DNA from: Tissierellia bacterium
GTDB lineage: Bacteria > Bacillota > Clostridia > Tissierellales > Sedimentibacteraceae
Length of the DNA: 64,000 nt
Direction of reading: 5' to 3'
NCBI GenBank assembly: GCA_028709465.1
Contig: JAQVWY010000005.1
Coordinates: 1 to 64,000, forward strand
The notes beneath the pieces were generated by a model. It was given only the letters and a program-made list of their open reading frames with translations. It made no database searches and was not told the DNA's origin. Numbering within the stretch: the stretch's first letter is position 1; each line of letters starts with the position of its first letter. A program made the translations under genes and the position numbers. Shown piece after piece: positions 13,304 through 61,889 of this stretch.

Positions 13304-14215
13304 ATGAAAAGACAAGAAATTACCTCAGTTCTTCTCATGCTCTTAACTGCCGCAATATGGGGATTTGCATTTGTTGCTCAAAGAGTCGGCATGCAAAATG
13401 TTGGTGCATTTACATATAATGCGGTAAGATTTGCATTAGGAAGCATATCGTTGATTCCTGTTATATACTTTTTAGAAAACGGATCAAAAGAAAGTAATGG
13501 AAAAATAGAAAAAAACAATGAACAAAAAGAAGCTGATATTAAAACAACTATTAAAGCTGGATTAATTGCTGGTAGCGTATTATTTATGGCAGCATCACTC
13601 CAGCAAGTAGGACTTAAGTATACTACTGCTGGTAAGGCAGGATTTATAACAAGCTTATACATTGTGCTCGTACCAATCCTTGGAATATTTTTGAAACAAA
13701 AAACAAATGCTTCAACTTGGATAGGTGCTTTGGTTGCCGTAATAGGTTTATATTTTTTAAGTATAAATAAAAATTTTAAAATTGAATTTGGAGATTTGCT
13801 AGAAATCATAGGTTCGTTTTTTTGGGCGGCACATATATTGTTAATAGATAAGTTTGTAAAAAATGTTAATGCAGTTAAACTTTCTGGCGTTCAGTTTGCA
13901 GCTTGTTCTGTTTTAAGTTTAATGGTTGCTATTATATTTGAAGATATCATTATAAGTGGAATCTTAGAAGCAGCCGTTCCAATACTTTATGGCGGTTTAA
14001 TGTCGGTTGGTGTAGCATATACTCTTCAAGCTATTGCACAAAAGCATGCTCAACCTGCCCATGCAGCAATAGCATTGAGTATGGAAGCAGTATTCGCTGC
14101 AATTGGCGGTATACTTATATTACATGAACGTCTATCTCCAAGAGGTTATTTGGGATGTGTTCTAATGTTTGCCGGTATGATGATTGCTCAATTAAAAAAC
14201 TTAAAAAAGAGTTAA
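13304..14215 (+). CDS. DMT superfamily (EamA) transporter
   Basis: 10-TM pattern, TAAIWGFAFVAQRVGM, repeated EamA halves. Confidence 0.92.
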   Translation: MKRQEITSVLLMLLTAAIWGFAFVAQRVGMQNVGAFTYNAVRFALGSISLIPVIYFLENGSKESNGKIEKNNEQKEADIKTTIKAGLIAGSVLFMAASLQQVGLKYTTAGKAGFITSLYIVLVPILGIFLKQKTNASTWIGALVAVIGLYFLSINKNFKIEFGDLLEIIGSFFWAAHILLIDKFVKNVNAVKLSGVQFAACSVLSLMVAIIFEDIIISGILEAAVPILYGGLMSVGVAYTLQAIAQKHAQPAHAAIALSMEAVFAAIGGILILHERLSPRGYLGCVLMFAGMMIAQLKNLKKS

Positions 14216-14238
14216 GTTGAAGTTTTACTTAACTCTTT
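14206..14238. terminator. Rho-independent terminator
   Basis: AAAGAGTTAAGT/ACTTAACTCTTT then attttttatttt. Confidence 0.75.
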
Positions 14239-14320
14239 ATTTTTTATTTTAATCCACAATTTTTACTGTCCATAAGTTTCTCTACTCTATTATTTGTTTT
14301 AATATTCAAAGGTTAGAGCT

Positions 14321-15508
14321 TTAAACACTTCTCAAAGCATCAATTGGATTTAATTTGCTTGCTTTCCTAGCTGGAGCTGAACCAAATATTATTCCTACTG
14401 CTGCTGAAAAACCAAAACCCAATAACACAGCAGACGGCTCAAGGGCTAGTTTAATTCCAATTGCATTTGAAGCGATATATGATATTAAGCCTCCTATAAC
14501 AATGCCAACAAAACCTCCTAAAACTGATAAAAATATGGCTTCAATCATAAACTGAAGTTGAATACTTCTAGGCTGTGCTCCCAACGCTTTTCTAAGTCCT
14601 ATTTCTGTAGTCCTTTCAGTAACAGATACGAGCATCATATTCATTATGCCTATACCTCCAACCACCAAGGATATAGAAGCTATGCCCACAAGCATGCCTT
14701 TCATCATTTGTTGCGTAGTTTTCATAACATCTAGCAAACTATCCATCTCTATTAATATGTAAGAATCATCCTTATAATTAAATGCAGCATTTAAAACTGT
14801 TTTTACAGTTTGAGTAACAATTTCCTTATTAGCATCTTCTCTTGTGTACAATTCCAATGATACAATATTTTTCATACCTGAAATATTCATTAAGTTTTTA
14901 TAGGGTATCATGATATCTTCATCATCGGCTGACATCATAGTTGTAACTGAAACTACATTATCATCATTACCTAAAACACCAACAATTACATATTCAATGC
15001 CACCTATGGATATTGTTTTATTTACCCCATTTTCTCCAGGAAATAGCTTTTGCTCGAAATCAGAACTTATGACACATACATTATTTTTATTTTCTACATC
15101 TAATACATTAATACCTCGTCCTGACCTTATTCGATCTGCAAATTTATTAAAATATATATCGTTTCTTCCTTGAATATTAATATTTTCATATATGACGCCA
15201 TTATACCATATATCCATATTTAAAGATACATTTGGCCCTATTCCAGTAATACCCTCTATATTTTTTAGAGCTTCAATATCATAATCATTCAAACCAGATT
15301 TTAAAGGTGTACCTGATGCTTGTATAATCAATGTGTTTGCACCTAATTTATCAAACTGTTCATCAACATTATCAATAACACCTTGCACAATGGTAATTAA
15401 TGCAATAATAGCTGCTACACCTATTACTATACCTAGAATTGTTAAAAAAGATCTCATTTTATTATGTATAATATTTTTCCATGACATTATAATACTTTCT
15501 CTAAACAT
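14321..15508 (-). CDS. MacB-like ABC transporter permease (FtsX domain)
   Basis: MRSFLTILGIVIGVAAIIALITI, SVTERTTEIGLRKALGA. Confidence 0.93.
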   Translation of the reverse strand: MFRESIIMSWKNIIHNKMRSFLTILGIVIGVAAIIALITIVQGVIDNVDEQFDKLGANTLIIQASGTPLKSGLNDYDIEALKNIEGITGIGPNVSLNMDIWYNGVIYENINIQGRNDIYFNKFADRIRSGRGINVLDVENKNNVCVISSDFEQKLFPGENGVNKTISIGGIEYVIVGVLGNDDNVVSVTTMMSADDEDIMIPYKNLMNISGMKNIVSLELYTREDANKEIVTQTVKTVLNAAFNYKDDSYILIEMDSLLDVMKTTQQMMKGMLVGIASISLVVGGIGIMNMMLVSVTERTTEIGLRKALGAQPRSIQLQFMIEAIFLSVLGGFVGIVIGGLISYIASNAIGIKLALEPSAVLLGFGFSAAVGIIFGSAPARKASKLNPIDALRSV

Positions 15509-54423: not shown

Positions 54424-54505
54424 TTTTACTCCTAACCTTTTAATATAAATATTATTATACCCCTTATCTCTTAATTTTAACACAATATAATAAAAATTCG
54501 CAAAT

Positions 54506-54534
54506 AAAAATGAGATGCATCTCATCTCATTTTT
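54506..54534. terminator. Terminator closing the amidase/membrane-pair unit
   Basis: AAAAATGAGATG-catct-CATCTCATTTTT perfect 12-bp stem. Confidence 0.8.
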
Positions 54535-54589
54535 ATTTTACTACTTAATTAATTGAATTTAAAGTTTATAACATTAATATTTTTAATAA

Positions 54590-55267
54590 TCATTGTTGTT
54601 TTTGCATTTCTTTCTTACTAGAAAAAATAGCAAAGCCTATAGAGCTAAACGAACACATAGGAACAATTAACCAAGTAGGAAGCATTCCTAGAACTAATAC
54701 TATAAAACCTGATACTATAATTGCAAACATTCCATATTTCGGATATTTAACGGCAAATAAAGAAAATAGTGCTCCAAATATTGCTGGCAACACGTAATCA
54801 AAAGATTTTATAATAGATGGTGGAAAATATGAGATTAATTTATTTCCAGCAATAGCAGCAATAGTTAATATTATCATATTCATTATTGTTGAACCTACCA
54901 TTCCTAATGTACCCACTAATTCAGCCTCATGTGAACCTGGCTTTGTATCTAAAACATCCTGAGTTACAACAGCACATGGAACTTTCATGTTGGCTATATT
55001 ACCAGATAAAAAGGCCATATAGGTGCCTGATACTCCCAGTATCGGGAAATATGATAGAGGAGTCATAAAATATTCCACACCATAGATGGAAGCAATCATA
55101 AACCATCCTTTAAGTATTACTTGAACTGATGGGATTGCTCCATACTTAACCCAAAGATAGATTGCTGGAATAAAACATAATGGAATTGCACCTAATAGTG
55201 TCCATCTTCCTGCCTTAACAATTTTTTTGGTAAATAATTCTTCATAAGAATAACTATTCTCTGTCAT
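54590..55267 (-). CDS. Multi-TM membrane protein, candidate transporter subunit 2
   Basis: 225 aa, about 6 hydrophobic segments; 13 nt downstream of the partner gene. Confidence 0.7.
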   Translation of the reverse strand: MTENSYSYEELFTKKIVKAGRWTLLGAIPLCFIPAIYLWVKYGAIPSVQVILKGWFMIASIYGVEYFMTPLSYFPILGVSGTYMAFLSGNIANMKVPCAVVTQDVLDTKPGSHEAELVGTLGMVGSTIMNMIILTIAAIAGNKLISYFPPSIIKSFDYVLPAIFGALFSLFAVKYPKYGMFAIIVSGFIVLVLGMLPTWLIVPMCSFSSIGFAIFSSKKEMQKQQ

Positions 55268-55280
55268 AATTAAATCCCCC

Positions 55281-55991
55281 TTAATTTGATACTAGAACAG
55301 CAACGAACATTCCTGCTACCATAGATATTCCAAGATTATACTCTTTTAGTTTTGGCATTTTGTTCGATAATTTAGTAAGAAAAATCATAACTACTGCAGC
55401 TACCAATGCTGCAATAAATTTGTCCATACCAGACTTTGAATTGCTTATTACCAGATATGAAGATGTACCTAATACGGCCGCTCCACATATTTTTCCCATC
55501 ATATCTGCATTTCCACCTGCTATTTTATCCTGTAAATTGCTCATTTTATGTGTGAACAAACCACAAAATAACAACCAACCACAACCATTTAAAGCCATTG
55601 TCCATACTGAAGATGCAAAAGCAGTCGCATCATATTGTGCAGATCCAAATTCAATTTCCATTGCTTTAGCACCAATAGTAGATGCTGTTAATTCAGTAGG
55701 AGCAGCTCCAATCATAGACAATCTCATCCAAGTTATTGGAGCTCCAATAACGGCCATCATACCTAACATAACTACAAATACAGACAATGCAGGACCGATA
55801 GATGAAACAGCTCCCGTCTTAATCGCCTTAAAGCACTGTTCCTTTGTAAGCGAGGTTGCTTTAGTAGCTTGAAATGCATATTTAGAAAATATATAAGCTT
55901 GAATACCCACCACTGAAATAACTGGTAGTGCTGTCATCCAAAGTATAGGATCGTTTGCAATATCTAAATATTCTTTCATAATTTCCTCCAT
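55281..55991 (-). CDS. DUF5058-like multi-TM membrane protein, candidate transporter subunit 1
   Basis: 236 aa; WMTALPVISVVGIQAYIFSKYAF, GPALSVFVVMLGMMAVIGAPITWMRLSMIGAAPTELTAS; family name from memory. Confidence 0.65.
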   Translation of the reverse strand: MEEIMKEYLDIANDPILWMTALPVISVVGIQAYIFSKYAFQATKATSLTKEQCFKAIKTGAVSSIGPALSVFVVMLGMMAVIGAPITWMRLSMIGAAPTELTASTIGAKAMEIEFGSAQYDATAFASSVWTMALNGCGWLLFCGLFTHKMSNLQDKIAGGNADMMGKICGAAVLGTSSYLVISNSKSGMDKFIAALVAAVVMIFLTKLSNKMPKLKEYNLGISMVAGMFVAVLVSN

Positions 55992-56079
55992 TCATAATAA
56001 GATTGGTAAAAAAAAGGCATCCTCAATAATTTATATAAAAAGATGCCCCTCTCCTTGTAAAACTAATCAATCATATATA

Positions 56080-56793
56080 TTATCTTTTATATACGCTACT
56101 ATCAATTCCTTCTAAATATTTAACTACATTTTCCAATGGTTCAACATCAGCAAATTTTGCATCCATATCAAACAAGTTCCATTCAATAACTCCAGGTACC
56201 CTATCGCCTATTGTTCCTATTGGCACTATAGTTTTAAATCCATGTCCGGTTGAATCCATTACAGTATGTCTAACACATGCACAAGCAGTAGCTCCCATTA
56301 CTATTACAGTATCTACCCCTAATTTATAAAGTGTTTGAGCCAAATGTGTTCCAAAGAAGTTACTAGCGTATTTTTTATGAATAACTGGTTCTTCAGGTTG
56401 TGGATTTAATTTAGGATCGATATCCATCCATTCAGAGTTGATATCTAATGTATGCATAGGAATCTTTTCATCCCATCTAGGTAAATCCCATTGTTCTTTT
56501 CCTACGTAGCCAGTTGTTGTATGGAATATAGGAACTCCTGATTTTCTAGCTGCTTCCAATACTTTAAGTGCATTAGCGCAAATTTCGTTATTATTTTCAC
56601 AAGTAAACGGATGCCCGTCTGACATCCAAGCTTTAGCCATATCTACTGTTGTAATAGCTGGAGCCTTGCCATAGCCCATTCTTCTTTGGAATCCTCTTTC
56701 CTTGTAGATCTTGCTTGCTTCTGCAAAAGCTTCCTGCAATAATTTTTGATCAAATTGATATTTTCCACCTTTGTCCTTAAAAAGTTCTGACAT
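56080..56793 (-). CDS. N-carbamoylsarcosine amidohydrolase-like isochorismatase-fold hydrolase
   Basis: Cys-hydrolase triad candidates: D in TTVDMAKAW, K in HKKYASNFFGT, C in MGATACACVRHTVMDSTGHGF. Confidence 0.82.
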   Translation of the reverse strand: MSELFKDKGGKYQFDQKLLQEAFAEASKIYKERGFQRRMGYGKAPAITTVDMAKAWMSDGHPFTCENNNEICANALKVLEAARKSGVPIFHTTTGYVGKEQWDLPRWDEKIPMHTLDINSEWMDIDPKLNPQPEEPVIHKKYASNFFGTHLAQTLYKLGVDTVIVMGATACACVRHTVMDSTGHGFKTIVPIGTIGDRVPGVIEWNLFDMDAKFADVEPLENVVKYLEGIDSSVYKR

Positions 56794-56837: not shown

Positions 56838-56854
56838 AGCAACAACCATGCCAA
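56838..56854 (-). promoter_or_regulatory. Sigma-54 promoter upstream of the amidase gene
   Basis: Minus strand TTGGCATGGTTGTTGCT: GG-N10-GC, -24 TTGGCAT, -12 TTGCT. Confidence 0.85.
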
Positions 56855-57031: not shown

Positions 57032-58459
57032 TTATTCTAAATTTGTTTCTATTTTTAATTTTTTTATCTTTCTAAACAAAGTTGAAGGGTGTACATCCAA
57101 TGTTTCAGCAGTATCTTTCACGGAACTGTGCTTGCTTAATGCAACCGTAATAATATTTTTCTCATACATATCTAAAATATATTTAAGCCTTGGAATGGAA
57201 TTATGCAATTCCAAGTTGCTGTTTTTCATTATGTGCTCAGTCAAAACCCAGGAAGGCAGCGACTCAATAGTTATTAAATCATTAATATTTACAATGAAAA
57301 GATATTCCACTAAATTTTCAAGTTCCCTTACATTGCCCGGCCATGAATAGTTTAGCAGCGCATCTTCGACTTCTGAGGTAACCCTTACATTTTTTTTGTA
57401 CTTTTTATTTAATTTCTTCATATAGTATGCTGCAATTTCCAGAATATCCTCTTGTCGCTCTCTCAAAGGTGGAATGTTTATTGGAACGACGTTCAATCTG
57501 TAAAAAAGGTCTTCTCTGAATTTTCCCTCTAAAACATCATTTTTAAGTTCTCTGTTTGTAGCTGCCAAAAGCCTGAAGTCCACGGGTATAGAAGTTTTAT
57601 CCCCCAACCTTTGAACTTCTCTCTCCTGTATAACCCTTAGAAGCTTTGGCTGCACATGCAGAGGAAGCTCTCCTATTTCATCCAGCAATATTGTTCCATT
57701 GTCGGCTAACTCAAACAATCCGGGCTTGCCATGCCTAGATGCTCCGGTAAAAGCACCCTCCACATATCCGAACAGTTCAGATTCAAACAAATCCTTAGGA
57801 ATTGCTGAACAGTTTACCTTAATGAAAGGTCCGTCCTTTCTTTCGCTTTCATTGTGAATATATTTTGCCAATACTTCTTTACCAGTTCCCGATTCTCCGC
57901 TTATGAGTACCGTAGTGTTGAAAGGCGCAACTTTAGATGCAAATTCCAATGTTTCATCCATTTTTTTGCTTTTAAAAATCAGACCGTCAGTGTTTATCTG
58001 ATCTTTTCGAAGTTGTGTCAATTCGTTCGAATATTTTTGCGTGAGCATTTTAGCATTCTCTAACTCTTTTTTTATATTGATGAGTTCCGTAATGTTTCTT
58101 GTGTTGCATATTACTCCTACAAAATTTCCGTTCTTTAAATATATAGGGGTTGCAGTGGTCAATGCAGACCTTCCCGTATAATATTTATGAATTACGGATA
58201 TGGGCTTTTTGTTTTCTATTACATTCAAAGAAAGCGAAGTATTAAATTTTTTTTCTTCCAATAAAATTTTTAAATTTTTGCCAATAATTTCATCTTTCTT
58301 TATACCCGTAGTATCTTCATAAGCTTTGTTGACGAACAAAACATTTCCTTTTTCATCAGAAATCAAAATTCCATCAGACGAGCACTCCAACGCTTCATGA
58401 AATCTATCACCGTAATCAATCTCTTTAGGTAGATTATTATCTATTTGATATTTCATCAA
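57032..58459 (-). CDS. PAS-domain sigma-54-dependent transcriptional activator
   Basis: PAS; GESGTGKEVLAKYIH, GYVEGAFTGASRHG, LDEIGELPLHVQPKLLRV; C-terminal HTH VKDTAETLDVHPSTLFRKIKKL. Confidence 0.95.
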   Translation of the reverse strand: MMKYQIDNNLPKEIDYGDRFHEALECSSDGILISDEKGNVLFVNKAYEDTTGIKKDEIIGKNLKILLEEKKFNTSLSLNVIENKKPISVIHKYYTGRSALTTATPIYLKNGNFVGVICNTRNITELINIKKELENAKMLTQKYSNELTQLRKDQINTDGLIFKSKKMDETLEFASKVAPFNTTVLISGESGTGKEVLAKYIHNESERKDGPFIKVNCSAIPKDLFESELFGYVEGAFTGASRHGKPGLFELADNGTILLDEIGELPLHVQPKLLRVIQEREVQRLGDKTSIPVDFRLLAATNRELKNDVLEGKFREDLFYRLNVVPINIPPLRERQEDILEIAAYYMKKLNKKYKKNVRVTSEVEDALLNYSWPGNVRELENLVEYLFIVNINDLITIESLPSWVLTEHIMKNSNLELHNSIPRLKYILDMYEKNIITVALSKHSSVKDTAETLDVHPSTLFRKIKKLKIETNLE

Positions 58460-58646: not shown

Positions 58647-59957
58647 CTAATTTTCAAATACGGTCTGATCAGTAACTTCTGTCTGTAATGCTTTAAGTGC
58701 TCTTTCAACTAAACTTCTTCTAATTTTCTTGCTCTTTTCTTCTCCAAGGTTAGGATCTCCCAATGGATACGGTATACCTACTGCAGGTATTATTCTGTTA
58801 GCACCAATTGTTAAGGATATTGGTACTACTGTACACATGTGAACAACTGGAATTCCAGCTCTTTCTATTTCTTTTACCATCGTTGCACCGCAACGAGTAC
58901 AAGTGCCTCAGGTTGATGTAAGAATAACTGCTCCAACTCCATCTTCAACTAACTTCTTGCTAAACTCTTCTCCAAAAGCTTTAGCGTTTCCAACTGATGT
59001 TCCTGTTCCTGTTGTTGTTACGAAGTAATTAGCTAATTCTCCTATTACTCCTTCCTTCTCCATTTCACGAAGTACGTCTAAAGGAACAACAAGGTTAGGA
59101 TTTTCTAATACATATGCTCTGTCATACCCTCCGTGAACAGTCATAAATTTATCCTTATTTAAGCTATCTAATCCTGTTATATCATATATGCCATATTTTG
59201 TAGCACTTGATGATTCAATTCTATCAGGATTTCCTTGAGGTACGATGCCTCCTGATGTTACAACAGCTAATTTGATTTTAGATAAATCTTTTATTGCTGG
59301 ATTTGGAGGAACTCTATCAAATACAGGCATTGGATATTCTGTAGTATATGGTCTTCCTGCAACCTTATCTAATAAAAGATCTACTGCTCTTTCAGAGCCT
59401 CTTCTTTCATTAAAATAGTTTACACGAATTCCTCTTTCAATATATCCTTCTTCTGCTGGAGATAATATTTCTTCTTTGTTAATCATCTTTTTAGCAAGCT
59501 TACATACTTTTGGCATTGCTTTTCTCATATCAGCAGCTGAAATTTTAGTTTCTATAATATATAAATCTTTTTTGAACATATCAACACCAGGATTTTCTGG
59601 ATACATTCCAGTTATAACAGGTATTTGAAGTTCATCTTCTACAGCCTTTGCTATAGTTCCACATGCTACCCCATATCTCCCAGCATTAAATGCAGGACCT
59701 GCTACAAACAAATCTGGTTTATAAGGTTTAATCATATTTAATATTGTTTTTTTTGCCTCTTCTATATGGCCACCAAAATATGTGTCTCCACATATTACAG
59801 TTGCCACGACTTCATAATTATCTCCAAGTCCTGACTGAAGAGCAAGACCAGGACCAACTATACCTTCTCTTACTTCTGGCTCTATATCAGCTTTTTCTTC
59901 TCCGCCTATATTTGCAAAGAATTGATTGATATAGTGAACCACTCTTATTTTATCCAT
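58647..59957 (-). CDS. Selenocysteine-containing component B subunit of a glycine/sarcosine/betaine reductase (probable sarcosine type, GrdF); UGA Sec codon at 58908-58910
   Basis: Two track ORFs are one frame: ...GVGAVILTST-U-GTCTRCGATMVKEIERAGIPVVHMCTVVPISLTIGANRI...; 436 aa. Confidence 0.95.
58880..58910 (-). promoter_or_regulatory. Bacterial SECIS element
   Basis: After UGA: GGCACTTGTAC-TCGTTGC-GGT-GCAACGA, a perfect 7-bp stem (58880-58896) starting about 12 nt after UGA. Confidence 0.8.
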
Positions 59958-59977: not shown

Positions 59978-61264
59978 TTAATATCCTTTAGCCGAAAGCT
60001 TGTTATATCCATTTGCAATTGTAGAAGCTATAATTATTTGAAGTTCTGCTTCGATACTTCCATCAGGCTTTAAGCTTCCTTCATAACCACCTATCATTGT
60101 TTCAATAAAATCTAATGTACCAATAACTTTTTCCATTGGTGGAAAATTGATTATTACATTTCCATTTCCACAAGATACAAGTGCATCTCCTTCTTCAGTG
60201 GCATCTGCTAATGATTGAGATTTTCCATCTCTTCCTGGGAATTCATCTGTAATCAATACTACTTTTATACCTTTTTGACTAACTTTTCTGCAGTTCATCA
60301 TAAGGTCTGTATCAGGGTTACCATATCCTTCTTCAGTGATAATAACACCATCTAACCCTAAAAATTCACAAAGTTTAGCAGTCATATCTGAAGATCTTTC
60401 TTTATCTGCAAGAAATACATTTTCATTGGTTAAAACAACTCCTATGAAGTTTAAATCCACTCCATGTCTTTTATATAAATCTTCTATAACTGGATTATTT
60501 AAGTGGTGGAATGTTGTAACTTTATCACAAGGAGCAACGCAATTACCGCTTATAATAGCTCCATCCATGATTTCTGTTGGATACATAAATGTTGGAACCA
60601 TTACCTTGGCATCTACTCCATAATAATATGTGTCATGCAATAATCCTTGAGACTGCAACATATGAATATAACCAATTTTGGGCAAGTCAGGATATTGTTT
60701 TACTTGTTCTTGTAAAGGTTTAGTTTCATAAGTAACTATTTCATCAGGTTCTACATTTCTTCCAGCTTCACCAATATATGCAGCAACTCTTAATCCAACC
60801 ATTCTTCCTGCTGCTTCATAATCATGGGTTTCTAATCCTTCAACTGGCTCAATAACTATACAAACATTGTTTGTTTCTGAAAATGGTGTATATTTCGCTG
60901 CAGGTCCTGACATATCTATTACACCTTCCTGAAAACCTACTATTCTACCACAAGTAATTACAGTAGCTCCAACTAAAGCATGCGTTCTTCCGCTTCCTAC
61001 TTCTTTAACTTTGTTAATTGTTCCTGGGAATATTGCACCACTACCTGAAACTTTAACTCTTGGTTCTATAACATCCTTTACAGGTGCAATACGAACTGAC
61101 TCTCCAGGTCTTGCTAATTCTACATTGGCAGATAAAATTCTATCATCTTCAAGGACAAGCTTTATTATTTCATCTTTATTAACATAAAGCGTTCCTTTAA
61201 CAACTTCAGTTTTATCACCGAATTGGACATCACTAATTTTAATTTTTCCTAGTTCTAATTTCAA
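59978..61264 (-). CDS. Component B proprotein of glycine/sarcosine/betaine reductase (GrdE/GrdG/GrdI family, probable GrdG), autoprocessed at Asn-Cys
   Basis: TTG start after aaaggagg; 428 aa LKLELGKIKISDVQFGDKT...; processing site AIISGNCVAPCDKVTTFHH. Confidence 0.93.
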   Translation of the reverse strand: MKLELGKIKISDVQFGDKTEVVKGTLYVNKDEIIKLVLEDDRILSANVELARPGESVRIAPVKDVIEPRVKVSGSGAIFPGTINKVKEVGSGRTHALVGATVITCGRIVGFQEGVIDMSGPAAKYTPFSETNNVCIVIEPVEGLETHDYEAAGRMVGLRVAAYIGEAGRNVEPDEIVTYETKPLQEQVKQYPDLPKIGYIHMLQSQGLLHDTYYYGVDAKVMVPTFMYPTEIMDGAIISGNCVAPCDKVTTFHHLNNPVIEDLYKRHGVDLNFIGVVLTNENVFLADKERSSDMTAKLCEFLGLDGVIITEEGYGNPDTDLMMNCRKVSQKGIKVVLITDEFPGRDGKSQSLADATEEGDALVSCGNGNVIINFPPMEKVIGTLDFIETMIGGYEGSLKPDGSIEAELQIIIASTIANGYNKLSAKGY

Positions 61265-61332
61265 AATTACTACCTCCTTTTCTATTTCAATCCTATCAAT
61301 GTATTCAATTTTATAACAAAAACAATATCTTA

Positions 61333-61407
61333 TTGTCATTTCGAGAGCGTAACCTAAAGAATCTCATAATTTTAACACTAGAAATCCTTCGCTATGGGAT
61401 GGCAATA
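61333..61407. repeat. Family B-related repeat
   Basis: attgtcatttcgagagcg...agaatctc...aatccttcgctatgggatggcaat. Confidence 0.5.
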
Positions 61408-61452: not shown

Positions 61453-61845
61453 TTAATAAATATTAAACATTGGGTTAACTATTACATTCTCTATTAATGA
61501 TAGATCTACTGTTTTAAAATCATTTAATATTTTCTCATTCCATTTTGGCGTAGACTTGTGCTTTAAAAATTTATTAGCCGCATCCAAACTATTTTCAATT
61601 AAAATTACGCTGCTATAATCTGTTTTTTCAGAGGTTTTGCCAATAATTACAGATTTATATGGTGTTTGATTTGGTTTTAAGCTTCCTGCCATAGGATGAG
61701 TAATTAATTTGCAGCCATTATGAATGTAATCTCTTGTTTCATTTAATACATCTGTATAGCTTCCTTTTTCTAAAAATACTATTTTGTATTTTCCCTTATA
61801 CTTTTTATAAACCTTGTCATTATTAGTAATAATAAACTTTTCCAA
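61453..61845 (-). CDS. grdX: GrdX-like protein
   Basis: TTG start after aaaggagg; LEKFIITNNDKVYKKYKGKYKIVFLEKGSYTDVLNETRDYIHNGCKLITHPMAGSLKPNQTPYKSVII; position first in grd cluster. Confidence 0.88.
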   Translation of the reverse strand: MEKFIITNNDKVYKKYKGKYKIVFLEKGSYTDVLNETRDYIHNGCKLITHPMAGSLKPNQTPYKSVIIGKTSEKTDYSSVILIENSLDAANKFLKHKSTPKWNEKILNDFKTVDLSLIENVIVNPMFNIY

Positions 61846-61889
61846 TGCTGTTCCTCCTTTATGCAAATTAATACCTCTATAGTTTGTTA

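Follow-up and report, generated by a model that had tools for sequence, protein, structure and literature searches.

The window, by which we mean the whole stretch of 64,000 nucleotides that was analysed, carries a run of reverse-strand genes that includes sarcosine reductase components, a regulator, an N-carbamoylsarcosine (NCS) amidase and, directly after the amidase, two small membrane proteins, here called subunit A and subunit B (Table 1). A preliminary description of this DNA had noted the two as adjacent reading frames of similar size, 13 nt apart, lying downstream of the amidase and followed by a strong terminator, with one of them resembling DUF5058. These observations hold: both reading frames are real genes, the resemblance belongs to subunit A, and a stable hairpin follows subunit B.

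Table 1. Features of the locus, in window coordinates
Feature	Position	Strand	Remarks
grdX	61453..61866	-	
grdG, sarcosine reductase component B alpha	59978..61339	-	NF040793 over its cut-off
grdF-like sarcosine reductase selenoprotein	58648..59957	-	in-frame TGA 58908-58910, then open to about 58648
PAS + sigma-54 activator + Fis-type HTH regulator	57032..58459	-	nearest PrdR
Sigma-54 promoter	56838..56854 (read 56854-56838)	-	TTGGCATGGTTGTTGCT; precedes NCS amidase
NCS amidase-like isochorismatase hydrolase	56080..56793	-	best solved relative 1nba, E 1.2e-63
Intercistronic hairpin + U8 tract, amidase/A gap	~56008..56050	-	-14 kcal/mol, terminator-like
Subunit A	55281..55991	-	236-aa polytopic membrane protein, DUF5058 (PF16481)
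Subunit B	54590..55267	-	225-aa polytopic membrane protein, no Pfam/NCBIfam family
Terminator-like hairpin after subunit B	54502..54538	-	16-bp stem, z -5.65

The amidase is assigned on its homology to 1nba and on an alignment in which the Asp, Lys and Cys positions are kept; these are the active-site residues of N-carbamoylsarcosine amidohydrolase. Its sigma-54 site is kept in every NCS locus that has a PAS/sigma-54 activator upstream, and this type of regulator precedes loci with a hydantoinase after the amidase and loci with A-B alike. The preliminary description had placed the membrane pair behind the same promoter, which is right in that the site exists and is conserved, but it had missed the hairpin with its U8 tract that intervenes. 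A-B therefore shares the sigma-54 promoter only via read-through, or has its own start. Almost every NCS locus of either type has a hairpin between the amidase and the next gene, L212 being the clearest exception. Most of these hairpins lack a U tract; the window has its U8. Across loci L199-L216 the hairpin sequences vary yet still pair, for example GGGGATAC/GTATCCCC and GGGGACACC/GGTGTCCC. Candidate roles include mRNA stabiliser, processing site and attenuator.

Subunit A matches PF16481 over the full model (E 6.5e-65; 219.3 bits against a gathering score of 28.2; model positions 1-222 of 222) and is thus a member of DUF5058, a family for which our search of 5.39 million papers found no mention. 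Its PHROG match, phrog_36725, is an entry without function. Profile searches of subunit B gave no Pfam or NCBIfam match, and neither did a Pfam search of 22 B homologs (E up to 0.1). Homologs of B with 20-56% identity nevertheless adjoin a DUF5058 gene in other genomes; this and the PF16481 match of A argue against chance reading frames. Both proteins are predicted to be almost wholly helical. In A, R90 and E100 are nearly invariant (99% each), and P67, G83, W88 and G95 are also conserved; in B the conserved residues are G20, Y83, G89-N90, N93, P97 and S126. Short broken helices are predicted at about 84-110 in A, which contains R90 and E100, and at 89-97 in B (GN..N...P), making these regions candidate places for a binding site.

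Two relationships were considered and rejected. The subunits are neither homologs of each other nor gene duplicates, as hhalign of the two alignments gave a probability of 2.7% over 35 columns. Weak DUF5058 matches to proteins of about 270 aa, which by eye rather than by profile are UppP-like plus one MFS protein, were judged compositional because Foldseek against the PDB gave no such match.

The pairing of A with B was surveyed in 87 neighbourhoods, window included, drawn by searches of relatives, class and phylum from the window's phylum (Bacillota). B directly follows A on the same strand in 86 of them, and the sole exception is a contig end. That the two form one two-protein unit, as first proposed from the window, is therefore strongly supported. 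The window's own genome (G000) holds a second, very divergent pair on another contig (locus L105, contig C147; A at 14030-14683, B directly after). This pair adjoins DegV-like and MATE-like genes and has no hydrolase neighbour.

Elsewhere in the family, the typical neighbour is a hydrolase. An M20 protein lies within positions -1 to +2 of the pair in 64/86 loci and at +1 in 55/86, while the same survey found none at positions 4-6 away. Pfam confirmed M20 for 64 of the 66 partner proteins scanned, which belong to several subfamilies (PM20D1-like PRK08262, TIGR01891 amidohydrolases, ArgE/DapE, CpsA and PepT-like). Six loci that lack M20 have a D-aminoacylase-like enzyme beside the pair, named by eye from sequence. 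In L166 the neighbour is an Xaa-Pro-dipeptidase-like amidohydrolase, accompanied by GrdF/GrdG-like genes, and in L242 an amidase of the hydantoinase/carbamoylase family (carbamoylase TIGR01879) directly follows B. What these partners share is a chemistry in which the amide at the nitrogen of an N-blocked amino acid is cleaved, and not the breakdown of creatinine; N-carbamoylsarcosine is a compound of that kind. The preliminary description had proposed creatinine-related substrates through guilt by association, on the understanding that occurrence of the pair apart from such catabolic genes would count against it. For the family this objection applies: M20 hydrolases dominate among its partners, it is not generally tied to creatinine or grd genes, and the whole family as a creatinine-specific transporter is rejected on the same evidence. 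An N-terminal hydrophobic segment is present in 30/66 M20 partners, including those of L099, L103, L108 and L112, which suggests that some may be tethered to the membrane near A-B.

The cargo of the window's own clade is narrowed by what occupies the slot after the NCS amidase. Close NCS amidases (77-93% identity) occur in 19 of 250 genomes of the window's order; 18 of these loci are informative, the contig ending behind the amidase in the other. The slot holds a hydantoinase in 13/18, A-B in 5/18 and both in 0/18; the hydantoinase of L207, for example, scores 472.5 bits against TIGR02033, whose cut-off is 393.25. Within one genus, L201 (A-B) and L204 and L207 (hydantoinase) have common flanking genes on both sides. 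If the pairs were placed at random, this exact complementarity would arise with a chance of 1/8568, but the genomes are related, so the number of switches is a better measure. On the NCS amidase tree, the A-B state requires at least three switches by the starred branches alone, and parsimony gives five.

The NCS-linked hydantoinase is also missing from the rest of the five A-B genomes, in which the best matches are 39%, 39%, 42% (in pieces), none and 48%. The genome without any match is G965, which is 90% complete. In G000 and G970 the remote hydantoinase paralogs belong to purine/xanthine-type clusters, and the 48% hydantoinase that G898 keeps lies next to a deaminase-like gene (L234). As a caveat, some A-B genomes such as G898 are thus not clearly without a hydantoin route. 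In G911 (L202, 4731-14430) there are two identical copies of the NCS amidase with near-identical IS-like genes (cluster c23) adjoining, and between the copies lie an MFS gene and a cytosine-deaminase-like gene that would fit creatinine use. This duplication placed a possible creatinine step beside the A-B pair, and the genes of both G898 and G911 could supply N-carbamoylsarcosine in other ways. In L199, L201, L207, L209 and L214 the sarcosine reductase genes adjoin a gene for an SNF-family sodium symporter (cluster c9; the L201 copy matches Pfam SNF), a candidate for sarcosine import that is distinct from A-B.

In the tree the NCS-linked pairs group as a single clade with an SH-aLRT of 100, and this clade is nested in the family with M20-linked pairs as its nearest sisters. 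Residue 69 of B is Thr in 5/5 of these pairs and in 0/85 others, where it is Glu (79), Gln (4), Asp (1) or Asn (1). In 11 further pairs, the carbamoylase-linked pair included, the motif was located by eye, and each one that could be located has Glu. Thr69 of B is accordingly a candidate cargo determinant, one that stems from a single evolutionary event.

Searches for a known transporter gave no lead. Neither subunit has a Pfam or NCBIfam match to known secondary carriers (MFS, APC, SNF and others), or a sequence match to any PDB entry. Foldseek of the A and B models against the PDB gave no match (best E 2.0; TM-scores of at most 0.26), although a remote fold match may be missed, since AF2 had 22 sequences to work from (model pLDDT 85.5 and 81.3). 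The window operon contains no dedicated ATPase gene of the ABC or ECF type, and an ABC-ATPase-like cluster (c2) in the neighbourhood survey is scattered over varying positions and strands.

On balance we favour, with modest confidence, the reading that A and B together make up a two-subunit importer, free of any ATPase, that takes up N-blocked amino acids and in the window's clade imports N-carbamoylsarcosine and replaces the hydantoinase. The pair with its constant order, the linkage to hydrolases, the slot swap, the clade and its marker residue are observed. Transport, its direction, its energy coupling and the exact cargo are all inferred, and transport itself rests on the polytopic nature of the proteins and on gene context, given the lack of sequence or fold homology to a solved transporter. 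An ion-coupled or facilitated carrier would be the simplest reading of a polytopic pair with two obligate subunits, no ATPase of its own and a substrate-supplying role. Across the family, A-B would bring in small N-blocked amino acids (N-acyl or N-carbamoyl) or short peptides for the amide hydrolase encoded with it. In the window's clade, N-carbamoylsarcosine would enter through A-B, the NCS amidase would convert it to sarcosine, NH3 and CO2, and the neighbouring sarcosine reductase would turn sarcosine into acetyl phosphate and methylamine. A-B would thereby take over from the hydantoinase, which in related species makes N-carbamoylsarcosine from N-methylhydantoin inside the cell. The swap of a creatinine-breakdown enzyme for A-B in one slot suggests this direct import.

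The same importer might instead carry creatinine, creatine or N-methylhydantoin, compounds from further up the pathway, which the cell would turn into N-carbamoylsarcosine with other enzymes. The pair does sit in a sarcosine/creatinine-type operon, and both the genes between the two amidase copies of G911 and the additional hydantoinase cluster of G898 agree with such a cargo. We nevertheless consider it unlikely, since the genomes with A-B in the slot are exactly those that lack the NCS-linked hydantoinase, G965 has no hydantoinase match of any kind, and the other partners of the family act on N-acyl amino acids and peptides rather than on rings. Of the uptake substrates initially offered for the pair, N-carbamoylsarcosine is therefore retained for the window's clade on the strength of the slot swap, and N-methylhydantoin and creatinine are disfavoured. 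Sequence cannot reveal direction, and a polytopic pair behind a hydrolase gene could be pictured as exporting a pathway product, either methylamine, as also proposed initially, or excess amino acid freed by the hydrolase. Hydantoinase-type loci, however, carry sarcosine reductase and yield the same end products with no A-B in that slot, which speaks against methylamine export. Since such fermenters draw their energy from amino acids, a general need to export them is unlikely, and we regard export of either kind as very improbable.

A role other than transport is also conceivable: embedded in the membrane, A-B could act as an enzyme or a receptor, or serve the adjacent hydrolase as a scaffold. 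The nearly invariant residues of the hydrophobic core region (R90 and E100 of A; Y83 and N90 of B) could be catalytic, the M20 partners with a hydrophobic N-terminus may dock at the membrane, and the models have no fold match to any carrier. Still, the same pair is kept with very diverse hydrolases, and its replacement of a substrate-supplying enzyme in NCS loci is better explained by an importer than by a scaffold, making this reading improbable in our view. Further points tell against the favoured import of N-carbamoylsarcosine by A-B: the U8 hairpin weakens simple co-transcription of the amidase and the pair, the second pair of the window's own genome (L105) is without a hydrolase neighbour, and the A-B-type NCS genomes found number only five, with pairs that share a common descent.

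A wider claim is plausible but rather more doubtful, namely that A-B founds a new heteromeric carrier class with a fold not described before. Such a class would be widespread in Bacillota and would supply the hydrolases encoded beside it with N-acyl, N-carbamoyl and peptide amides, and its NCS clade (Glu69 to Thr in B) would enable some species to scavenge N-carbamoylsarcosine that creatinine or hydantoin degraders set free. The proposal gives a function hypothesis, a partner and a cargo to DUF5058 and its constant unnamed companion, and the replacement of a hydantoinase in one operon slot singles out a particular cargo. If true, N-carbamoylsarcosine would be an intermediate common to different anaerobes in creatinine breakdown. 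This compound has been recorded as a metabolite in a metabolomics study of calf diarrhoea (PMC13185640).

DUF5058 itself, of which subunit A is a full-length member, is a Pfam family without function whose description does not include the obligate second subunit. The system closest in its workings is AbgT with AbgA/AbgB, in which p-aminobenzoyl-glutamate is taken up and hydrolysed by M20D enzymes, the importer being encoded beside the M20-family amidohydrolases. A-B resembles it as a putative membrane importer gene next to M20 hydrolases that would cut an imported N-acyl amino acid. It differs in having two short subunits, many hydrolase families as partners and no Pfam relation to AbgT: the AbgT-type profile in Pfam matched neither A nor B (E up to 1), nor any of the 22 B homologs (E up to 0.1). 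In Corynebacterium glutamicum, transport for the creatinine/N-carbamoylsarcosine pathway involves CrnT (creatinine) and CreT (proposed for creatine), the latter one MFS-type protein predicted to cross the membrane 11 times (PMC8864220), whereas neither A nor B matches MFS. Tissierella creatinophila has a D-hydantoinase-like/NCS amidase gene cluster (PMC5364220) with the same kind of amidase and hydantoinase-like gene as the hydantoinase-type loci described here; in the window the membrane pair follows the amidase where those loci have a hydantoinase.
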